DNA of 32,396 bases from positions 1-32,396 of the IMG/VR virus record IMGVR_UViG_3300031951_000755; one strand, written 5' to 3'. Numbering within the stretch: the stretch's first letter is position 1; each line of letters begins with the position of its first letter. The notes under the pieces were generated by a model. That model made no database searches, was not told where the DNA came from, and saw nothing but the letters and a program-made list of their open reading frames with translations. The DNA comes from a virus. A program made the translations under genes and the position numbers. This document shows positions 1 through 28,680 of this stretch, piece after piece.

Positions 1-426
1 ACACTCAAGATGACTCGAAAACTAATGAAGAAAGGGATCACATCTAAGAAATTAGAGTTCCTTGCTAAGTGGCTAGGATGCACACCTAAGGATCATCACA
101 ATGAGTTTCCAGGTGGTAAGTTATGGGAAGAGTGCCTCAATGGTAACATGCGTGCCTGGGATGCTTGTGAGGCATACAATCGCCAAGATGTGGCCACGTT
201 GATCGAGTGTTTTTGGAAGCTAGTGAGATATGATGTTTCAATAAACTTTTCTATCTATGAGCATAAAAACAAGTGCATTTGTGGATCTGAGCATTTTATC
301 CGAGATGGTTATAAGGTAACTAACTCTAGCAAAAAGATGCGGTTTAGGTGTAGTGCATGTGGCAAAGTCTTTACTGCCAGGGTGGAGGAGCTTCCATCTA
401 AGTTAAAGCAGGGACTATTTCAATAA
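1..426 (+). CDS. RNase H-like 3'-5' exonuclease with C-terminal zinc ribbon (5' end outside window)
   Basis: The reading frame is open from base 1 (codons for T-L-K precede the first Met), so the gene begins upstream. The visible part resembles the C-terminal half of phage YprB/DnaQ-type RNase H-fold exonucleases: a TLKxxRK start, a SxKLEFLAKWLG helix, then a YNRQDV motif that supplies the last catalytic Asp of the YxxxD exo III site. It ends in a zinc ribbon with one CxC and one CxxC pair (CICGS and CSACG). In related phage proteins the zinc ribbon follows the nuclease directly, as here. The first catalytic acids must lie outside the window. A role in DNA or RNA processing during replication is inferred. 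Family assignment is from recalled motif similarity only. Confidence 0.8.
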   Translation, partial: TLKMTRKLMKKGITSKKLEFLAKWLGCTPKDHHNEFPGGKLWEECLNGNMRAWDACEAYNRQDVATLIECFWKLVRYDVSINFSIYEHKNKCICGSEHFIRDGYKVTNSSKKMRFRCSACGKVFTARVEELPSKLKQGLFQ

Positions 427-486
427 AAGTAAACAAGTCAGTCTTTTAATCCTTTATCACTTAAAATAAACCGATAAACTTTTAGT

Positions 487-801
487 ATGAGAAAGAAAAC
501 TTTTCCTAAAAAGATGGTTATCCTGGGCAGAAAATTCAAGATCTCTGTGGTCAATAAGACTAAGCTCTGCACTATCACCACACCAGATGCAGTGGCCTGC
601 GTGGACTTCTCAGATAATCATGTCTACATCTGGGATGAGTTAAGTGATGAGCAAAAGATGCTATCCCTCTTTCATGAGTTATCCCACATCTGCCATGTGA
701 CTGTAGGTCTGGATCAGGTTATCTCTGATGAGTTACAAGAGATCCTATGTGAGTCCATGGCCAATGCGTTTGGTGACATGCTCAAATCCTTCCATAAATG
801 A
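487..801 (+). CDS. ImmA/IrrE-like zinc metallopeptidase
   Basis: This 104-residue protein has an HExxH zinc site (HELSH, residues 63-67) in a hydrophobic helix, and a helix about 15 residues later carries acidic residues (E85, E89) that could give the third ligand. The N-terminal half is strand-rich. Size and layout fit the minimal ImmA/IrrE or related phage zincin domain. ImmA-type peptidases are known to cleave XRE repressors, and an XRE regulator lies three genes downstream (1283-1546) in the same direction, which suggests but does not prove a regulatory pair. No good ribosome binding site precedes the ATG. The next gene overlaps its stop by ATGA. Confidence 0.75.
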   Translation: MRKKTFPKKMVILGRKFKISVVNKTKLCTITTPDAVACVDFSDNHVYIWDELSDEQKMLSLFHELSHICHVTVGLDQVISDELQEILCESMANAFGDMLKSFHK

Positions 802-1049
802 CTGCTCAGGTGATCTTTCTTAACAGATGGTTAGACTGCCCCGATGAGAAGAAACGAGAGCATGCCATGATCCAGGCACTTATCCAGGAAGAAGTGGCAA
901 AATACCTATATGAGATCAGAAATTATAATGCCTTCCAAAAGGCAATCTCAAAGCAAAAATCCTATAATTTATTCAGGCAAAAACTCAGACTCATTGATGG
1001 TGGTGCAGAAAATTCACACCAGAAAAAAGATCCTTCACAAGATAATTAA
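798..1049 (+). CDS. hypothetical protein
   Basis: An 83-residue, mostly helical, charged protein without signal peptide or membrane segment. It starts at an ATGA overlap with the metallopeptidase gene, so it is probably translated by coupling to it. The last 15 residues are polar and Lys/Asp/Gln-rich, likely disordered. No family is recognised. Confidence 0.65.
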   Translation: MTAQVIFLNRWLDCPDEKKREHAMIQALIQEEVAKYLYEIRNYNAFQKAISKQKSYNLFRQKLRLIDGGAENSHQKKDPSQDN

Positions 1050-1077
1050 ATTTAGTCTATAGTCTTTTAAAAAGGAC

Positions 1078-1299
1078 ATGACTATGGAAGTTTCGCTAAG
1101 AAGAGATCCCTTCACTATTGATCTTTCAATAACTGCAAGGCAAGACTCAACAGTTTGTGTCTCACATCTAGAAATCCCAAACATAACAAATGGCAAGATT
1201 GAATTAAAAGACTTCTATAAGTTTATAGTGGATCTTGAGTTTGCACTTAATATGACAATCGAAAAAGCAGAAAGGACAAATTATGATCACCAGAGCTAA
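1078..1299 (+). CDS. hypothetical protein
   Basis: A 73-residue protein preceded by an AAAGGA ribosome binding site a few bases before the ATG. Alternating polar and hydrophobic residues suggest a small beta-rich fold with a C-terminal helix. Its 3' end overlaps the XRE regulator gene by 17 bases. Function unknown. Confidence 0.6.
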   Translation: MTMEVSLRRDPFTIDLSITARQDSTVCVSHLEIPNITNGKIELKDFYKFIVDLEFALNMTIEKAERTNYDHQS

Positions 1300-1546
1300 T
1301 AAGATGGCATCACTCATTAAGGCCAGAAGAAATGAATTAAAGATTTCACAGATTGAGTTAGGCAGGCAGTTAGGATGGACATCATCCAAGGGGCAGGTGG
1401 TGTCTAATGTTGAGAGAGGTCTGCAACAGATCCCATCAAGTCACCTTAATAGATTGTCAGTCATCCTGGTTATCCCAAGAGAGCAGATCATTGAAGCATA
1501 CATAGAAGACTTTAAGGACTCACTTTATAAGGAGCTAAACAAATGA
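1283..1546 (+). CDS. XRE/Cro-type helix-turn-helix regulator
   Basis: An 87-residue protein with one lambda-repressor-like HTH domain: LIKARRNELKISQIELGRQ at about residues 10-28, a VSNVERG recognition region near residues 41-47, and a closing helix with LNRLSVIL. No second domain is present, so it is of Cro/small-repressor size. The start at 1283 is preferred over the Met at 1304 because AAAGGA lies at good spacing. It overlaps the preceding gene by 17 bases and the next by ATGA. It may control early or late transcription, or be the partner of the ImmA/IrrE-like peptidase upstream. Its operator is not identified. Confidence 0.85.
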   Translation: MITRANKMASLIKARRNELKISQIELGRQLGWTSSKGQVVSNVERGLQQIPSSHLNRLSVILVIPREQIIEAYIEDFKDSLYKELNK

Positions 1547-1770
1547 TTGCAGAGATTAAATTTGTTTTGCCAGATGAGGCAGATGATTGTGAGGCATGCA
1601 TGAAAGGTGCAAGATATAAACGCATGATTGATGAGCTTTATGAAGATGTGTTTAGACCACACATTAAGTATGAAAAGCCAATCATAGGAGATGACCTTAG
1701 AGGAAGGGATCTGGATGTCATTGCAGAGATCTGGAATAAATGCAAAGAACATTTTGAGGTGGAAGGATGA
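1543..1770 (+). CDS. small phage protein of an early operon
   Basis: A 75-residue acidic protein beginning with a strand (MIAEIKFVLPDEADD) and then helices. It resembles a recurrent family of small phage proteins that open with a short strand and the xxLPEDxD turn, whose function is unknown. It is coupled at both ends by ATGA overlaps, so it sits inside one translation unit. Confidence 0.65.
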   Translation: MIAEIKFVLPDEADDCEACMKGARYKRMIDELYEDVFRPHIKYEKPIIGDDLRGRDLDVIAEIWNKCKEHFEVEG

Positions 1771-1952
1771 AAGATAAAGACAAAGACACAATAGAGCAAT
1801 TTAAACTTATTTATGATTGTCTTGAAGGCATTTCTGCTATTACCGATAATAGATTAGAAATCTATAACTCGGTAATAAATTGCTTAATTCTAGAAGCTAA
1901 ATTTTTAGTCGAGCAAGGTATAAGAGAGCTTGATAAAAGGAAGTCCAAATGA
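1767..1952 (+). CDS. hypothetical protein
   Basis: A 61-residue protein, almost wholly alpha-helical by eye, with a Lys/Asp-rich N-terminus and a basic end. It is coupled by ATGA overlaps to both neighbours, which is the main evidence that it is a gene. No domain is recognised. Confidence 0.6.
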   Translation: MKDKDKDTIEQFKLIYDCLEGISAITDNRLEIYNSVINCLILEAKFLVEQGIRELDKRKSK

Positions 1953-2257
1953 ACGACAAAGACAAAGAAGCGTTTGAGGAGTGGGTGAAATACAATGTGT
2001 CTATTGCTCTTAGAGATCGGTATGGCCTAGCTTTAATTCATACATGGCAAGCCGCTTGTGAGTATAAGGAAACTGAAAACAAAAAGCTACGTGAGGCTTT
2101 AGAGGATTTTATTTTAGAAAGTGAGCATGAACCAAGTTGTAAATATACAGAAGCATTTGGATTTCGAGAGGACTGTAAGTGCATGGATAGAAGGTATTAT
2201 AATAGGGATGAATGTATTACTAGAGCTAGTGAAGCACTAAAAGAAATAAAGGAATAA
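1949..2257 (+). CDS. hypothetical protein
   Basis: A 102-residue protein opening with MNDKDKEAFEEWVKYN, then a helix with a TWQAACEYKE segment. This layout is common in small phage proteins of unknown function from early operons. The second half has three cysteines near a histidine (HEPSCKY, DCKCMD), which might bind metal. ATGA-coupled to the gene before it, and followed one base later by a 52-residue ORF. Confidence 0.65.
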   Translation: MNDKDKEAFEEWVKYNVSIALRDRYGLALIHTWQAACEYKETENKKLREALEDFILESEHEPSCKYTEAFGFREDCKCMDRRYYNRDECITRASEALKEIKE

Positions 2258-2258
2258 A

Positions 2259-2417
2259 ATGATCTATTTTCATAAATTTTTACACATCATAATTATAGTA
2301 AACTGGAAAAATAGTTTTGGAGTTCACGTAACATTTGAAGATGGTTATGGAATTGTTTTTAGCAAAGAACAGTGGAATATAATATCAAGTATGTATGAAT
2401 TTATCGGGGAAATTTAA
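2259..2417 (+). CDS. small hypothetical protein (52 aa)
   Basis: The ATG at 2259 follows AAAGGAATAAA, the same leader that precedes the next gene at 2436, so the ribosome binding site is convincing. The product begins MIYFHKFLHIIIIVNW, then a strand-rich polar half with FEDGYGIVFS, and ends at TAA 2415-2417. No membrane segment long enough to be certain, and no family recognised. It fills the gap between two coupled genes. Confidence 0.55.
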   Translation: MIYFHKFLHIIIIVNWKNSFGVHVTFEDGYGIVFSKEQWNIISSMYEFIGEI

Positions 2418-2435
2418 ATAATATAAAGGAATAAA

Positions 2436-2642
2436 ATGAAAGTTATATATAAAGAACAGATTTTAGAAAAGATTTTAGCAGAAAAGAAAAAGGCAGATGT
2501 CTTTGGGTGGGAAATTGAAAAAATAATCTTAACTAAATTAGAGTCAGATTTACTTTTTATGCAAAATCCAGAGATTGCACCACCTGGAATAGTGGGCAGT
2601 ATTTATGGCATAAAAATTGAGATAAAGGATCAACATGATTAA
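2436..2642 (+). CDS. hypothetical protein
   Basis: A 68-residue protein with an N-terminal charged helix and a C-terminal GSIYGIKIEI strand pair, a pattern seen in several small phage proteins of unknown role. The ribosome binding site AAAGGA is at good spacing. It overlaps the next gene by 8 bases. Confidence 0.6.
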   Translation: MKVIYKEQILEKILAEKKKADVFGWEIEKIILTKLESDLLFMQNPEIAPPGIVGSIYGIKIEIKDQHD

Positions 2643-2841
2643 ACATGATAGGTGTGCAGAGTTTGAAAAAAGGATCTTAGAGCTTGAGAATAAGCTTATA
2701 GACTTTGAGTCAGACTGGGTTAAGATGAGGGATGTTTCTGATAAGGTCCATGATGAAAATAAAAAGTTAAGAGAGGAAAACATCATCCTTAGGGCAGAGC
2801 TTGATGACACCAGGAAGCAGTTAGAAAGGGTATTAGTTTAA
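2635..2841 (+). CDS. small coiled-coil protein
   Basis: A 68-residue protein that is one long predicted coiled coil: regularly spaced Leu/Ile from about residue 12 to the end, with ENKLIDFE, ENKKLREEN and LRAELDDTRKQLE segments. No signal or membrane segment. It lies between a hypothetical gene and the HNH nuclease gene, joined to the latter by TAATG. It probably works as an oligomer, but its partner is unknown. Confidence 0.6.
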   Translation: MIKHDRCAEFEKRILELENKLIDFESDWVKMRDVSDKVHDENKKLREENIILRAELDDTRKQLERVLV

Positions 2842-3128
2842 TGAGTTTTGAAAGTGATAAACCATGCATCATATGTGGTCAAAATCAACCCAAAATGGTG
2901 ACATATCACCACATCTATAGAAGAAAGACTTATCCTGAGCATGAGTGGAAGACCTGGAATTTGATGCCTCTCTGCTTAAAACATCACAATGAAATCCATT
3001 CAACATCTAACAGACTGTTTGCATCCAAACATAGACAGGCCCAAAAGTGGTTTGATGATAATGGTTGGGAAGTTAAACTATCAGGACAATATTTCCATCC
3101 TATAGATTTAGATGAAAATGATAGTTAA
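2841..3128 (+). CDS. HNH endonuclease
   Basis: A 95-residue HNH-fold protein. It shows a CxxC knuckle (CIICG), then HHIYRRKTYP with the first catalytic His, WNLMPLC with the central Asn, and HHNEIH with the last metal ligands. It is short and free-standing, with no DNA-binding extension typical of homing enzymes. Many cos-packaging phages carry a small HNH gene beside the terminase, where it assists terminase cutting. Here the terminase genes begin about 740 bases downstream, so that role is plausible. Its stop overlaps the stop of the convergent gene at 3125-3352. Confidence 0.85.
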   Translation: MSFESDKPCIICGQNQPKMVTYHHIYRRKTYPEHEWKTWNLMPLCLKHHNEIHSTSNRLFASKHRQAQKWFDDNGWEVKLSGQYFHPIDLDENDS

Positions 3129-3352
3129 TATCCTATACGGCAAGGGCTTTGCTCATCAGTGTAAATAATCTCAGTGGGTGGGATATTGTCGGGTGTGCCT
3201 AATTCCCAGTGGTAGATCTCTGCATCAGTCTCAACATATTCAATCTCATCAGTTTCTTCCTCAAGACTCCAATCCTTAAACATGGCCTCTAATAAGACAT
3301 CCTGGGCGATTGAATTAAAAGGGAGTAACAAAATAAAGATTAAGACTCTCAT
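3125..3352 (-). CDS. small exported acidic protein (moron-like)
   Basis: A 75-residue protein on the opposite strand to all genes around it. It has a Sec signal peptide: MR, a hydrophobic core (VLIFILLLPF), then SIAQ before a likely cleavage near residue 17. The mature part is about 58 residues, strongly acidic, Trp- and Pro-containing, with one Cys near the C-terminus. No ribosome binding site is visible. A promoter (3358-3387) ends 5 bases before the ATG, so the mRNA may be leaderless. It is divergent from the lipoprotein at 3434-3616. Independent promoter, reverse strand and export signal make it look like a lysogenic-conversion or exclusion gene. No homologue is recognised. Confidence 0.6.
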   Translation of the reverse strand: MRVLIFILLLPFNSIAQDVLLEAMFKDWSLEEETDEIEYVETDAEIYHWELGTPDNIPPTEIIYTDEQSPCRIGY

Positions 3353-3357
3353 GATTA

Positions 3358-3387
3358 ATGATAGTAAGTCTTTGGATTGATTGTAAA
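3358..3387 (-). promoter_or_regulatory. sigma70-type promoter for the exported protein
   Basis: Read leftward: TTTACA (3387-3382), an 18-base spacer, then TATCAT (3363-3358). Five of six bases match consensus in each box. Only 5 bases separate the -10 box from the ATG at 3352-3350, so the transcript would begin at or next to the start codon. Confidence 0.5.
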
Positions 3388-3398
3388 TGCCGATTAAT

Positions 3399-3418
3399 TT
3401 TACCCTAAGTTTACCCTA
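3399..3418 (+). repeat. direct repeat TTTACCCTA, possible operator
   Basis: TTTACCCTA occurs at 3399-3407 and again at 3410-3418, an 11-base period close to one helical turn. The repeats cover the -35 box and most of the spacer of the rightward promoter. A repressor binding there on one face of the helix would block that promoter and probably the adjacent divergent one. Confidence 0.45.
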
Positions 3419-3427
3419 TGCTATAAT
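3399..3427 (+). promoter_or_regulatory. sigma70-type promoter for the lipoprotein gene
   Basis: TTTACC (3399-3404), a 17-base spacer, and a perfect TATAAT (3422-3427). The ATG at 3434 is 6 bases after the -10 box, so the first transcribed base should be at or beside the start codon. The -35 box faces that of the leftward promoter with 11 bases between them. Confidence 0.65.
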
Positions 3428-3433
3428 GGGGAT

Positions 3434-3616
3434 ATGAAAATCTTTATCCTGCTATTATTAGTCTCTTGCGGTAAACCTACGGAAAAATGCATATCTGGGA
3501 CCGAAAAGATCTTTCTTTGCAAAGCAGAGGTCGCTTCAAATTTCTATCCATCATCTGCACCACAGACTGAATTAGACAGATGTCAGGTCACTTATGTGCC
3601 AAATGCCTGTTATTAG
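3434..3616 (+). CDS. small cysteine-rich lipoprotein
   Basis: A 60-residue prolipoprotein: MK, a hydrophobic core of eight residues, then lipobox LVSC with Cys12 as the lipidated residue. The mature part is 49 residues with four further cysteines (19, 29, 50, 59), enough for two disulfides in the periplasm or at the surface. Residue +2 after Cys is Gly, not Asp, which in enteric rules favours outer-membrane delivery. It has its own strong promoter and no leader. Small phage lipoproteins such as T5 Llp and phi80 Cor block receptors against superinfection. A similar job here is inference from size, export and independent expression, not from homology. Confidence 0.7.
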   Translation: MKIFILLLLVSCGKPTEKCISGTEKIFLCKAEVASNFYPSSAPQTELDRCQVTYVPNACY

Positions 3617-3646
3617 TTGACACATCTTAACACATCAAAATAAGAT
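3617..3646 (+). promoter_or_regulatory. candidate promoter for the packaging/structural operon
   Basis: A perfect TTGACA (3617-3622), 18-base spacer and TAAGAT (3641-3646, four of six). It lies directly after the lipoprotein stop and upstream of the first gene of the terminase operon. A second TTGACA at 3654-3659 has no good -10 partner. Confidence 0.5.
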
Positions 3647-3696
3647 CAAATTATTGACATGCGTGAGGCATATCAAAGCATTAGACGGAGGTCTAT

Positions 3697-3873
3697 GTGG
3701 AAATAGGGGCAATCAATGCCATCTTAAGCTCTATTAAAACTAGAGTAGATGGATCAGTCACAATCAATCTTGAGGTCAATCCAACAGAGATTGAGGTCAT
3801 CAATAAATTAATGCAGTCTTATTTGCTTAATCAAAAGCTTTTCACTGTTGCATTTGTGAAGGTGGATGAATGA
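3697..3873 (+). CDS. small protein preceding terminase (58 aa, GTG start)
   Basis: A very strong GGAGGT (3687-3692) sits 4 bases before GTG 3697. The overlapping ATG at 3695 stops after three codons, so GTG is the start. The product is a small alpha/beta protein with the segments TRVDGSVTINLEV and LLNQKLFTVAFVKVDE. It is coupled by ATGA to the terminase small-subunit gene. The best ribosome binding site of the region suggests it is well translated. Function unknown. Confidence 0.6.
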   Translation: MEIGAINAILSSIKTRVDGSVTINLEVNPTEIEVINKLMQSYLLNQKLFTVAFVKVDE

Positions 3874-4253
3874 GGCAAGTGGGAAGACCAAGCACTTACA
3901 CTGAAGACATGCCAGAGAAGATGATGAAATGGTTCAATAGGCCAATTGCCACTTACTCTGGGCACAAGACCATAATCACAAAGTTTCCTACTTTTGAAAG
4001 GTTTGCATTAGAGCATGGTGTGCATCACCAAACTTTGCTTAATTGGTGTGATAAACATCCAGAATTTTTAGAGGCATATAACATTTGTAAGGGGATCCAG
4101 AAAGATTTGCTCATTGAAGGTGGACTATCTGGGATCTACAAAGAAAGATTTGCCATGTTTCTAAGTGTGAATGTCTCAGACTTAAAAGATAAAGTAGAGC
4201 AGACAATAGATCAAAAAGTGGTGCAAGTTTCATTGAACTACAAAGATGAATAA
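3870..4253 (+). CDS. terS: terminase small subunit
   Basis: A 127-residue DNA-packaging protein. The opening GRPSTYTEDM and the helix-turn-helix region around FERFALEHGVHHQTLLNWC (about residues 46-64) are typical of small terminases that bind the packaging site. HPEFLEAYNICKGIQKDLL forms the oligomerisation helix. It is ATGA-coupled to the gene before and TAATG-coupled to the large subunit, the usual order and spacing. Confidence 0.88.
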   Translation: MRQVGRPSTYTEDMPEKMMKWFNRPIATYSGHKTIITKFPTFERFALEHGVHHQTLLNWCDKHPEFLEAYNICKGIQKDLLIEGGLSGIYKERFAMFLSVNVSDLKDKVEQTIDQKVVQVSLNYKDE

Positions 4254-5599
4254 TGTCCACACCTACACTGCAAGAGTTTAACCCTAAGCTTATTCCCTGG
4301 CAGTATAAGGCAATCAAAGAGATCAACAGTTTTGACTACTCAACAGGGATCAATGAGATCTTATTCTCTGGATCTGTTGGATCTGCCAAGTCAATCAATG
4401 GTGCTCACATCCTGGCAAGGCACTTAATAGAAAACCCAAACTCAAGAGCGTTAGTTGTGAGGAGAGCTTTAAAGGATCTTAAGAGGACCTTTTGGCAATT
4501 GTTTCTCAAGCACCTATCAGACACACCTGAGCTTATAAAATCCTACAATAAATCAGAGATGAAGATCACTCTAGTCAATGGCAGTGAGTGCATTGGTGAC
4601 AGCTATGATGACATGAACCTGGAAAAGTTTAGATCACTTGAGTTATCTATGGCACTTATCGAGGAAGCTACAGAGTCAGAAAGAGAGCTTTATGATGCTA
4701 TCAAGATGAGAGTAGGGCGATTGCCTGCAATCAAGCAAAACATCATCCTCGCAATAACTAACCCAGACTCACCTTCACACTATCTCTATAACTACTTTAT
4801 AGAATCCCAGTCACACAATAGAAAGGTGGTATACTCACTTACTGAGCAAAATCCTTTCTTGCCACCATGGTATGTGCAGAATCTAAAGAATGATCTGGAT
4901 CCTAAGATGGCCTTAAGGATGCTTGAGGGGAAATGGATTGAGATAGCTGAGGAAGTGATCTACTGGAATTTTGACATGCAAAGAAACTATAAGGATCATA
5001 GCTATCAGTTTGATCCAAGGTTTCCAATAGACTTCATGCATGACTTTAACATCGGGCACAATAAACCAATGTCTATGGCAGTGGGACAGTTTATCAATGG
5101 GACCTATCATGTAGCCAAGACCATCTTAATTGAAGGTGCCTCAACATCAAACATCATGGATGAGCTAGCAGACACAGGGATCCTTGATCTACAATGTCCA
5201 AGCTTCAGAGTCTTTGGTGATGCCACAGGGAAACATAAGGACACAAGAAACTTTAGATCAGACTATGACATCATAAAGCAGTGTTTGATGAGTCACAGAA
5301 GAAAAGACAATAGGCCAATGAATGTGGTCTTTGAAGTACCTACGGCAAACCCACACATAAGGGAAAGACATAACTTAATGAACGCTCTTTTCCTCAATGC
5401 CAATAATCAAACCAGGTTCTACATCTACAAAGATGCCTTTGATGCCACAAAAGGTTTTAGACTTACAAAGTATAAGCAAGGTGCAAGACTGGTAGAGGAT
5501 GACTCTACTCCAAAAGAGCAACATGTGACTACTGCAGTTGGTTATTGGTGTTATAGACTTGAGACAATCAAACCGATCAAGAAAGTTGTCATTAGTTAA
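4253..5599 (+). CDS. terL: terminase large subunit
   Basis: A 448-residue packaging ATPase-nuclease of normal length. Walker A is GSVGSAKS (40-47), with Ala replacing the usual Gly before Lys. Walker B with catalytic Glu is ALIEEATE (134-141), and a TNPDSP coupling motif is at about 169-174. The nuclease half has HDFNIG (Asp264) and FGDATG (Asp323). At the place where many family members carry a third acid (HxxDAxxY), this protein reads HVTTAVGY (424-431), and two Asp at 416-417 are nearby. It translocates DNA through the portal encoded next and cuts it. Start is TAATG-coupled to the small subunit. Confidence 0.93.
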   Translation: MSTPTLQEFNPKLIPWQYKAIKEINSFDYSTGINEILFSGSVGSAKSINGAHILARHLIENPNSRALVVRRALKDLKRTFWQLFLKHLSDTPELIKSYNKSEMKITLVNGSECIGDSYDDMNLEKFRSLELSMALIEEATESERELYDAIKMRVGRLPAIKQNIILAITNPDSPSHYLYNYFIESQSHNRKVVYSLTEQNPFLPPWYVQNLKNDLDPKMALRMLEGKWIEIAEEVIYWNFDMQRNYKDHSYQFDPRFPIDFMHDFNIGHNKPMSMAVGQFINGTYHVAKTILIEGASTSNIMDELADTGILDLQCPSFRVFGDATGKHKDTRNFRSDYDIIKQCLMSHRRKDNRPMNVVFEVPTANPHIRERHNLMNALFLNANNQTRFYIYKDAFDATKGFRLTKYKQGARLVEDDSTPKEQHVTTAVGYWCYRLETIKPIKKVVIS

Positions 5600-5635
5600 A
5601 TTCCTGCCTACAATTAAACACATCAAGGGTGGATC

Positions 5636-7261
5636 ATGGACTATCAATTAACTCAAGAATTTGTTTTCAACACAATCAATGAGATAGAATCAAATCAAAA
5701 CAAAGACAGAAAGAAAAAAGAGTTTGCCTCATGGCAGATCTATGATGGTAACTTACGCTACTATGTAGAAAATAAAGTCAAACAAATGTACCCGAAAACC
5801 TGGGAGTCTTACACTATTTCAGACTATTCAGTGATCAAAAAGATTGTAGATAAAAAGTCACAGTCTTATAAAGAATCACCGATCAGGAAGCTAGACACAG
5901 ATCAAGAGACTCAAGACTATCAAGACATCATGAGTGAGTTTAGATTTAATCAGGCCATGAGAAGCTTTGACAGAGTTTACAATCAACATAAGTATGCCTT
6001 AATGGCAGTCTTCCTTGAGAAAGAGATTGAAGATAATAAGGTCAAAAAAGAGTTTAAGTTTATCCCATTAGCACCTTATGAGTATGACTTAGTCAGATCA
6101 CAAGATGGATCCCTTGAGGCAGTTATCCTCTCTTATCCAGATGACTATGTGATCACTGGCCCAGAGTCAGACTACATCAATGCCACTATCTCAGAGGCAG
6201 GGCAACAAGATGAGGCAAGAGGATCAAAGGTCTATGCCTTTTGGACAGAAGATGAACATAAGATTTTCAAAGTCTCTAAGGATGACAATGGATCAAAGAG
6301 GATTGAATATCTAGAGATCCCAGAAAACCCACAAGGGATCAATCCCTATGGTGTGCTTCCATTTGTCTATGTACCATCAAGTTATGATCCAAACTATCCT
6401 GTAAACTCTCCACTACCTTATCAGTCTATTGAGCTTAATGCTCTCATGTCTGTCTACCTAACAAGTGGCAACATGCAGATAGGTCAATTGGTTTTGAAGT
6501 ACCCTGCAGATCAAGAGATTGAGATGGTGACATCAGGACTCTTCACAGGGATGAAGCTTCCACAATCCAAAAACCCAGATGATCCAGACACAGAGGCAGA
6601 CTACATCTCACCTACTCCAAACTTGTCTGGGCATAGAGAATCTATCCTCACTTATCTATCAATGATATTAGATGAGCAGGGAATTAACTCAAACCAAATC
6701 ATTAATCCAAACGAAAAATTTACATCAGGATTTGACAGATTATTAAGCTCTGCAGATTTGCAGGGAATAATTGAAGCTAACCAAGACCTTTATCACACCG
6801 TTGAGCAACAAGTGTATAAGATCATCAAAAAGATGCACATCAATGAAGGTGAGGCAGGCAAGTTTAGATCTGAAAACATCCAAGTGATCTACAGAAAACC
6901 TAAGATCCTAGTAAGTGATAGAGAGAAGCTAGAAAACCTTAAGCTCATGGAAGACCTTGGTGTACTACTTGAATGGCAGAAGTTTCAAATTGTGGATCCT
7001 AACTTATCAGATGAGCAGGCGAGAGAAAGACTTGAGATGAAGAAAGATGAGAAGCGTAAAGCTCTTGAGGCACTAAGCACAGATGATGCGTTTAATGGTG
7101 CACAGGTTACATCTATTGTTGAGGTAGTTGAGAAGGTAGCAAATGGCACAATCCCTAGAGAGTCAGGGGTAGCAATCCTTGTGGCATCTTTTGGCATCTC
7201 AGAAGAAAATGCAAACAAGATGATCCCAGGTGCAGGATTTCAACCATCAGTGGTCCCATAG
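5636..7261 (+). CDS. portal protein
   Basis: A 541-residue portal of the SPP1 gp6-like type. Position after the large terminase, length, and regions such as SYKESPIRKL, an internal FIPLAPYEYD strand, GVLPFVYVPS and the long helical part from about residue 400 fit this family. Residues 463-500 are very charged and helical, as in the crown or clip segments of portals. An AGGGTGG ribosome binding site precedes ATG 5636. Twelve copies would form the ring at the capsid vertex. Confidence 0.88.
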   Translation: MDYQLTQEFVFNTINEIESNQNKDRKKKEFASWQIYDGNLRYYVENKVKQMYPKTWESYTISDYSVIKKIVDKKSQSYKESPIRKLDTDQETQDYQDIMSEFRFNQAMRSFDRVYNQHKYALMAVFLEKEIEDNKVKKEFKFIPLAPYEYDLVRSQDGSLEAVILSYPDDYVITGPESDYINATISEAGQQDEARGSKVYAFWTEDEHKIFKVSKDDNGSKRIEYLEIPENPQGINPYGVLPFVYVPSSYDPNYPVNSPLPYQSIELNALMSVYLTSGNMQIGQLVLKYPADQEIEMVTSGLFTGMKLPQSKNPDDPDTEADYISPTPNLSGHRESILTYLSMILDEQGINSNQIINPNEKFTSGFDRLLSSADLQGIIEANQDLYHTVEQQVYKIIKKMHINEGEAGKFRSENIQVIYRKPKILVSDREKLENLKLMEDLGVLLEWQKFQIVDPNLSDEQARERLEMKKDEKRKALEALSTDDAFNGAQVTSIVEVVEKVANGTIPRESGVAILVASFGISEENANKMIPGAGFQPSVVP

Positions 7262-27636: not shown

Positions 27637-28008
27637 ATGATCACAGTCACAGATTATTTAATGGGAAGAGACAGGCAGGATCCTTTGGATATGCTTCAAA
27701 CTAGAAACATGGCAGAGCTACTCTCTAGAGTTAATCATCTCATGGCAAGTCTAAATTTTGATCCTAAGCTCTCATCAGGTTACAGACCACCAAGGATCAA
27801 TAAATCCGTAGGTGGTGCAAAGATGTCGACACATACAGTGTGTGCAGGCATTGACCTATTAGATCCAGAAAACAAGATAGGTAAGTTTTTAAAAAAGAAT
27901 TTTTTCATCCTTGGGAATTATGATCTCTATCTAGAAAATCCAGATCACACACCAGGATGGTTGCACTTAGATATTAAACAAAGAAAAAATAGAGTCTTTA
28001 ATCCTTAG
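27637..28008 (+). CDS. endolysin, M15-family peptidase
   Basis: A 123-residue zinc peptidase. SSGYRPPRINKSVGGAKMST (46-65) precedes His66; Asp73 follows in CAGIDL; WLHLDI (108-113) gives His110 and Asp112. This is the SxHxxGxAxD plus HxD zinc and catalytic set of the M15/VanY-type group. The enzyme would cut peptide stems or crosslinks in the cell wall. No signal peptide is present, so a holin is needed. Length is typical for a single-domain endolysin. It begins one base after the stop of the membrane protein gene. Confidence 0.88.
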   Translation: MITVTDYLMGRDRQDPLDMLQTRNMAELLSRVNHLMASLNFDPKLSSGYRPPRINKSVGGAKMSTHTVCAGIDLLDPENKIGKFLKKNFFILGNYDLYLENPDHTPGWLHLDIKQRKNRVFNP

Positions 28009-28017
28009 GAGAATTTT

Positions 28018-28272
28018 ATGGAGCAAATCTTTTTATTTTTGAAGCCAATGATTGAGGCATACGCAGGACAGTTTGGACCTGCCATTCAGATCATTTCTAT
28101 TATTGGATCACTCAGACTGGTGATTAAACCTGCCATGGAGTTATTTAAAGCTTATGTGGCAATCACACCAAGCAAATCTGATGATCACCTTCCAGGTCAA
28201 TTTGAAAACTCAAAGATCTACAAAGCTGTAGTTTTCTCACTTGATTGGTTTGCTTCAATCAAACTTAAATGA
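28018..28272 (+). CDS. holin candidate / small membrane protein
   Basis: An 84-residue protein with hydrophobic segments at about 1-15 and 19-45 (IQIISIIGSLRLVIKPAMEL), a Lys/Asp turn, and a hydrophobic C-terminus (YKAVVFSLDWFASIKLK). A strong TTAGGAG ribosome binding site precedes the ATG. Position after the endolysin and size suit a holin, but the helices are broken by charged residues, so this is not firm. It is ATGA-coupled to the next gene. Confidence 0.5.
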   Translation: MEQIFLFLKPMIEAYAGQFGPAIQIISIIGSLRLVIKPAMELFKAYVAITPSKSDDHLPGQFENSKIYKAVVFSLDWFASIKLK

Positions 28273-28511
28273 TCACTCTAGTTTCTTCCCTTATTGGTGC
28301 AGTAGAGGCAGGACTTAAGCTTTGGGGTACCAAAGAGGGAAGAAAATATCTTGATGAAATATTAGAGTTAAAACAGGACTGGGTTAATGAATACAATAAA
28401 GAAACTCATGAAAGGTCTGATGCTAAGCTTGATCTTATTGAGCAACGAATCATGCTCATCAGTGAACTATTCAGTTCCAAGATTGGAAATGAGGACTCTA
28501 AGAATTTGTGA
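28269..28511 (+). CDS. small helical lysis-region protein
   Basis: An 80-residue protein with a weakly hydrophobic N-terminal helix (ITLVSSLIGAVEAGLKLW) and a charged helix (RKYLDEILELKQDWVNEY and on). Such an order recalls an inner-membrane spanin, and a lipoprotein ORF begins inside this gene in the +1 frame, as in Rz/Rz1 arrangements. The N-terminal helix contains a Glu and is short for a membrane anchor, so the assignment is tentative. Confidence 0.55.
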   Translation: MITLVSSLIGAVEAGLKLWGTKEGRKYLDEILELKQDWVNEYNKETHERSDAKLDLIEQRIMLISELFSSKIGNEDSKNL

Positions 28512-28680
28512 GAGTCTAGATGGTTTCTGTTATAACTATGATGTGTGCCTCAAGAAATTTCTGGGCATGTGTCTCAAGCGAGAGATTGCTACTGATAAAA
28601 TAGACTTCTCAGACAAAGACAAGGTCAAAGAACTGCTAGATAAAAACTTTCACCTCAAGGCCAGAAAGAAAGTCATCTAG
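28387..28680 (+). CDS. lipoprotein overlapping the previous gene out of frame (possible outer spanin)
   Basis: A 97-residue protein that starts within the previous gene in the +1 frame and extends 169 bases beyond it. It has a basic start (MNTIKKLMKG), a hydrophobic core (LMLSLILLS) and Cys23 after NES, so a signal peptide II site is plausible but not canonical. The mature part has four more cysteines (41, 48, 54, 62) and a charged C-terminus. Rz1-type outer spanins are often nested this way, but are shorter and Pro-rich. Either an unusual spanin or another exported protein. Confidence 0.55.
   Translation: MNTIKKLMKGLMLSLILLSNESCSSVNYSVPRLEMRTLRICESLDGFCYNYDVCLKKFLGMCLKREIATDKIDFSDKDKVKELLDKNFHLKARKKVI

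Follow-up and report, generated by a model that had tools for sequence, protein, structure and literature searches.

The locus considered here raises the question of why two small genes for predicted exported proteins, each with a promoter box lying almost against its start codon, stand at the junction of the early and packaging genes of a virus, and what their products might do. The window, by which we mean the whole stretch of DNA that was analysed, is a linear virus record of 32,396 bases. A sequence-only reading had placed in it a gene with a signal peptide (P1) and a divergent gene (P2) with the lipobox LVSC and four further cysteines, and both are present as described (Table 1), the additional P2 cysteines being Cys19, 29, 50, and 59. 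That reading also described the pair as interrupting two long operons, and the two genes do lie between two plus-strand runs (positions 10-3128 and 3697 onward), although only P1 is antisense to these. The short N-terminal signal of P1 is likely cut after SIA16 and is followed by an acidic middle and a conserved C-terminal motif, WELGTPDNIPPTEIIY, with Cys as the last residue. A clear Ala at the cleavage site is missing in L045, L052, and L056 (alignment A3), and P1 cleavage may therefore vary among the relatives. P1 has no lipobox, and its ETEIIY segment might resemble a TonB box. It is predicted to be mostly disordered, the model of P2 is a helical hairpin of modest confidence, and mean pLDDT is near 64 for both; a structural search with the P2 model returned no neighbours, every Foldseek hit having E > 1.

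Table 1. Coordinates of the P1/P2 island and the adjoining terminase-side elements in the window
Feature	Positions	Strand	Description
P1	3125..3352	(-)	75 aa, open frame, Sec-type signal; residues MRVLIFILLLPFNSIA/QD...
P2	3434..3616	(+)	60 aa, predicted lipoprotein, MKIFILLLLVS/CG, lipobox LVSC at Cys12
P1 promoter	3358..3387	(-)	TTTACA-N18-TATCAT; -10 ends 5 nt before ATG; leaderless start predicted
P2 promoter	3399..3427	(+)	TTTACC-N17-TATAAT, TG before -10 (extended); ends 6 nt before ATG
Terminase-side operon, candidate promoter	3617..3646	(+)	TTGACA-N18-TAAGAT, directly after P2 stop
Small hairpin	3654..3676	(+)	expected 5' end of terminase-side operon transcript; -7.1 kcal/mol

It is clear from the codon comparisons that P1 is a real protein family under purifying selection. 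Relatives were found in about 37 IMG/VR contigs, a first scan giving 25 and profile scans 32, to which L065 and then a distant branch of four contigs (L004 among these), where SWDNLYL replaces WELGTPDN, were added. In the main branch, the C-terminal motif WELGTPDN-PE-IIY is nearly invariant while its synonymous codons vary freely, and 11 positions are invariant in alignment A3, which holds 15 diverse main-branch members. The dN/dS ratio is 0.05-0.32 in nine of 12 pairs, with the other three saturated at synonymous sites, and these values rule out a spurious open reading frame. Membership in a known family was rejected, as P1 has no match in Pfam, PHROGs, NCBIfam, PADLOC, the PDB, or INPHARED. 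Likewise, a collection of 84,980 genomes holds no genuine P1 relative at the level of the WELGTPDN pattern, and an apparent bacterial homologue reached through L037 was discarded because the match falls within an ORF resembling malate dehydrogenase and the genome in question gives no hit with profile A3. The earlier statement that neither protein has a recognisable homologue holds where curated families are concerned, but there are many relatives that lack annotation. Small exported phage proteins easily escape annotation, and P1 is in no family library despite strong selection seen across many uncultured phages. Its near-invariant motif also offers a direct handle on the host partner.

The promoter sequences and spacings in the window are exactly those reported from the sequence alone, although the two promoters are back-to-back, that is, divergent, rather than face-to-face. 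Neither gene has a usable Shine-Dalgarno sequence, as had been noted (the GGGG of P2 sits just 2 nt from the ATG), and conserved placement supports the leaderless design proposed on that basis. Promoter-like sites in positions 1-6000 number 16, against 18.9 expected in shuffles of this AT-rich DNA, and since consensus matches are as common as in shuffles, significance must rest on placement and conservation. When the 70 nt upstream of each gene were scored with a sigma-70 matrix, taking one member per sequence-distinct class, the top promoter ended 5-7 nt before the ATG in 10 of the 11 reversed P1 classes (the window, L014, L041, L045, L043, L018, L049, L034, L060, and L090, with weak scores of 4.6 in L014 and 5.1 in L090), the sole exception being L058, with its top site 12 nt before the ATG. 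The same holds for both P2 classes (three of three sequences), the placement being kept in L014 and L017. In a background of 386 genes from these phages, which counts the P1 and P2 genes as well, the top site falls at 5-7 nt in 11.7%, or in 6.2% (24 genes) at a score of at least 6, and P1 and P2 account for 15 of the 24. At the 11.7% rate, the binomial probability of at least 9 of 11 is 2e-7, and the observed 10 of 11 is stronger, with the qualification that the P1 classes are not fully independent and that background gene starts were called mechanically; an accompanying Fisher test counted related sequences separately and is not leaned on. Conserved placement next to the ATG rules out chance promoters. 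Among the codirectional P1 genes, that of L004 also has a promoter site 5 nt before its ATG, and those of L035 and L089 have Shine-Dalgarno sequences (GGAAAGG and GGAGG, respectively) and no ATG-adjacent promoter.

Judging from this placement, the P1 and P2 messages are predicted to start at the AUG. The lambda cI message is the textbook leaderless case, and P1 and P2 resemble it in having no Shine-Dalgarno sequence and an expected start at the AUG; they differ in that the predicted product is exported rather than a repressor, that we infer the start, and that the design is common to many phages. No match to this design was found in papers on leaderless messages in lytic phages. The layout is kept while promoter sequence, neighbours, and terminase change, which suggests that phages benefit from leaderless translation, a benefit that would extend past textbook cases such as lambda cI. 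In two more gene families of the relatives (L045:14442-15407, L052:12133-13104, L042:2632-2862, and L052:3420-3650), a promoter likewise ends 6 nt before the ATG, and these genes may also be leaderless.

P2 is restricted to phages that carry P1. Its relatives occur in five contigs only, each time adjoining P1: four almost match the window in sequence, one of these being truncated at a contig end, and the fifth, L017, is 45% identical, with the cysteines and the divergent layout kept and a lipobox that reads LTAC. The proposed pairing of the two genes stands to the extent that this layout persists in L017, where P1 is 55-61% and P2 45% identical, and fails as an obligatory association, P1 occurring without P2 in about 30 contigs. 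The sequences of the close P2 pair are too similar to show coding selection (four base differences in synonymous against four in non-synonymous codons), so that support for P2 comes from the conserved cysteines of L017. P2 has no family match in PHROGs, Pfam, or NCBIfam. With T5 Llp and phi80 Cor, small lipoproteins that block receptors against superinfection and were named in the sequence-only reading, it shares the character of a small phage lipoprotein, in its case predicted from a lipobox found by reading. P1, with no lipobox, differs from both. P2 was also considered as an outer spanin (Rz1), which would lie next to or within an inner-spanin gene in the lysis cassette, but it sits between P1 and the terminase operon, away from the presumed lysis genes. 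The probable lysis region, identified by reading, is at 27637-28680; besides an M15-like peptidase and a small membrane protein, it encodes an ORF with a lipobox (28387-28680) that overlaps the ORF at 28269-28511 in a spanin-like layout. Another short lipoprotein-like ORF (MKTILFILLFYSCTNN...) lies among the early genes of a close relative (L014:5900-6073).

We tentatively propose that the island serves as an autonomous promoter hub where the early and packaging genes meet. The host's RNA polymerase, carrying a sigma-70-type factor, would read P1, and here also P2, from promoters whose messages begin at the AUG, and such transcription would probably make expression early. Leaderless translation would then yield P1, exported via its short Sec signal, as well as the lipoprotein P2, which disulfides probably hold together, and both would work in the infected cell's envelope. 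Their most likely job would be to alter that envelope against competing phages, much as T4 Spackle acts in the periplasm. P1 would be the conserved core of this system; P2 would have joined it in a single lineage, between the promoters of P1 and of the terminase-side operon. Taken whole, the proposal falls somewhat short of an even chance, and superinfection exclusion by P1 and P2, taken alone, is a guess by analogy, if also the leading reading. T4 Spackle (gp61.3), a small exported phage protein of 97 aa with a cleaved 22-residue signal that excludes other phages (PMC7650644), would be the closest working analogue for P1. Both are small signal-bearing phage proteins, Spackle being periplasmic in lytic infection and P1 predicted to be exported, but no sequence relation is seen between them, and Spackle is folded whereas P1 is predicted to be mostly disordered. 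Family-library and database searches with P1 and P2 gave no similarity to any known exclusion protein.

Nearly as likely as exclusion, though itself on the doubtful side, is that P1 binds a periplasmic or outer-membrane component of the host during the lytic cycle, such as a protease, a stress sensor, or a wall enzyme, with the C-terminal peptide as the binding segment, and thereby stabilises the cell or times lysis with no anti-phage role. The short motif stays the same in phages whose terminases differ, which points to a conserved partner and not to a receptor that changes fast, and both the lack of lysogeny genes in 26 records and the inclusion of P1 in a forward operon in L035 and L089 are consistent with such a role. 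Against it, the presumed lysis genes are elsewhere, at about 27.6-28.7 kb.

In most loci, P1 is antisense to its flanks: on one side it converges with an early gene, HNH or another, and on the other it diverges either from a 58-64-aa gene and the terminase genes or from a ParB/methylase gene. Its place is between terS and terL in L055, L056, and L034, and elsewhere before terS or beside ParB/methylase genes; such varied places are as expected of an autonomous unit. L045 and L048 have nearly the same P1 and different terminase-side genes. No empty site without P1 was found in a close relative. In the window, P1 and the convergent HNH gene have TTAA (3125-3128) in common, each using its own stop there, and in L055, L056, and L034 there is likewise an overlap of a few bases between P1 and the gene convergent with it.

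This architecture recalls phage morons, accessory prophage loci with their own promoter, opposite orientation, and varied places (PMC7067206). P1 shares with them a promoter of its own (in silico), an orientation opposite to its neighbours, and different positions in different phages; it differs in its retention at the early/packaging junction across many related phages, in being able to join a forward operon, in the lack of any sign of lysogeny in these records, and in that a scan of positions 1-6000 revealed no terminator-like site at either end of the island, although that scan cannot exclude one. We regard P1 as a new moron-like family of proteins whose leaderless design is both unusual and conserved, and the moron concept fits its architecture but not the lack of lysogeny genes. 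That P1 and P2 are morons of temperate phages, expressed from the prophage to protect or modify the lysogen, is unlikely, even with the own promoter, reversed orientation, and patchy placement in its favour. Neither a tyrosine integrase nor a serine resolvase was found in the 26 records, so that lysogen-only expression is not supported; many of these records are fragments, and the absence is not decisive. The failure to find a genuine P1 relative in the genome collection by the WELGTPDN pattern likewise speaks against a prophage gene. A temperate life is accordingly the less likely alternative for these phages and an envelope function in the lytic cycle the more likely, and the earlier suggestion of expression independent of the lytic programme is not supported, given that no such recombinase was found in the 26 records and that P1 lies in forward operons in L035 and L089. 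As to the host, the window's terminase has only distant matches, both in known phages (22-27% identity among the matches listed) and in four of 399 genomes of one phylum, the portal and capsid had no matches in the host search, and the relatives encode proteins whose matches are in phages with a wide variety of hosts.

The promoter of the terminase-side operon is near-identical in L039 and L014, with a similar layout in L017, and in the window P2 sits between it and the P1 promoter. Where P2 is absent, there is usually an overlap between the P1 promoter and the divergent one that serves the terminase- or ParB-side operon, of about 12-20 bp in loci with both promoters (17 bp in L045). The divergent promoter reads TTGACN-N18-TAGNCT in the largest group of such loci; in L060 it is present with no overlap, and L056 and L034 have no convincing one. 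A small hairpin expected at the start of the divergent transcript has stems that differ by group (GAGTC/GACTC, GCATC/GATGC, and GTAAGC/GCTTAC) with pairing kept; the promoter and hairpin together are at L045:9893-9994, L052:9908-10000, L042:9899-9994, L044:5339-5423, L018:4886-4983, and L060:1554-1669. A search for RNA families in the window found none. The overlap and the 5' hairpin would fit a regulatory locus in which the P1 and operon promoters hinder each other and the peptide is secondary. Strong selection on the P1 amino-acid sequence argues against this, as does the separation of the promoters in the window and in L060, and we consider it improbable. There is also only a small chance that P1 is a broadly shared tool whose fixed peptide, WELGTPDN-PE-IIY, binds a conserved host envelope component while its leaderless promoter excludes that of the packaging-side operon; if so, the mutually exclusive promoters would leave each phage genome to follow either envelope modification or the structural programme.

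Arbitrium peptides vary from phage to phage and are encoded beside their receptor gene, and although P1 is small, predicted to be exported, and sharply conserved in its C-terminal peptide, we regard a precursor of a similar secreted phage-phage signal as very improbable, since that peptide is nearly the same across diverse phages, no receptor-like neighbour is seen at the P1 loci, and no lysogeny genes were found.

The first gene of the terminase-side run in the window (3697-3873) encodes 58 aa (INAILSSIKTRVDGSV) and has no convincing match in PHROGs or Pfam. Its relatives adjoin P1 in many loci, and its start codon is GTG in the window and ATG in L014 and L039.
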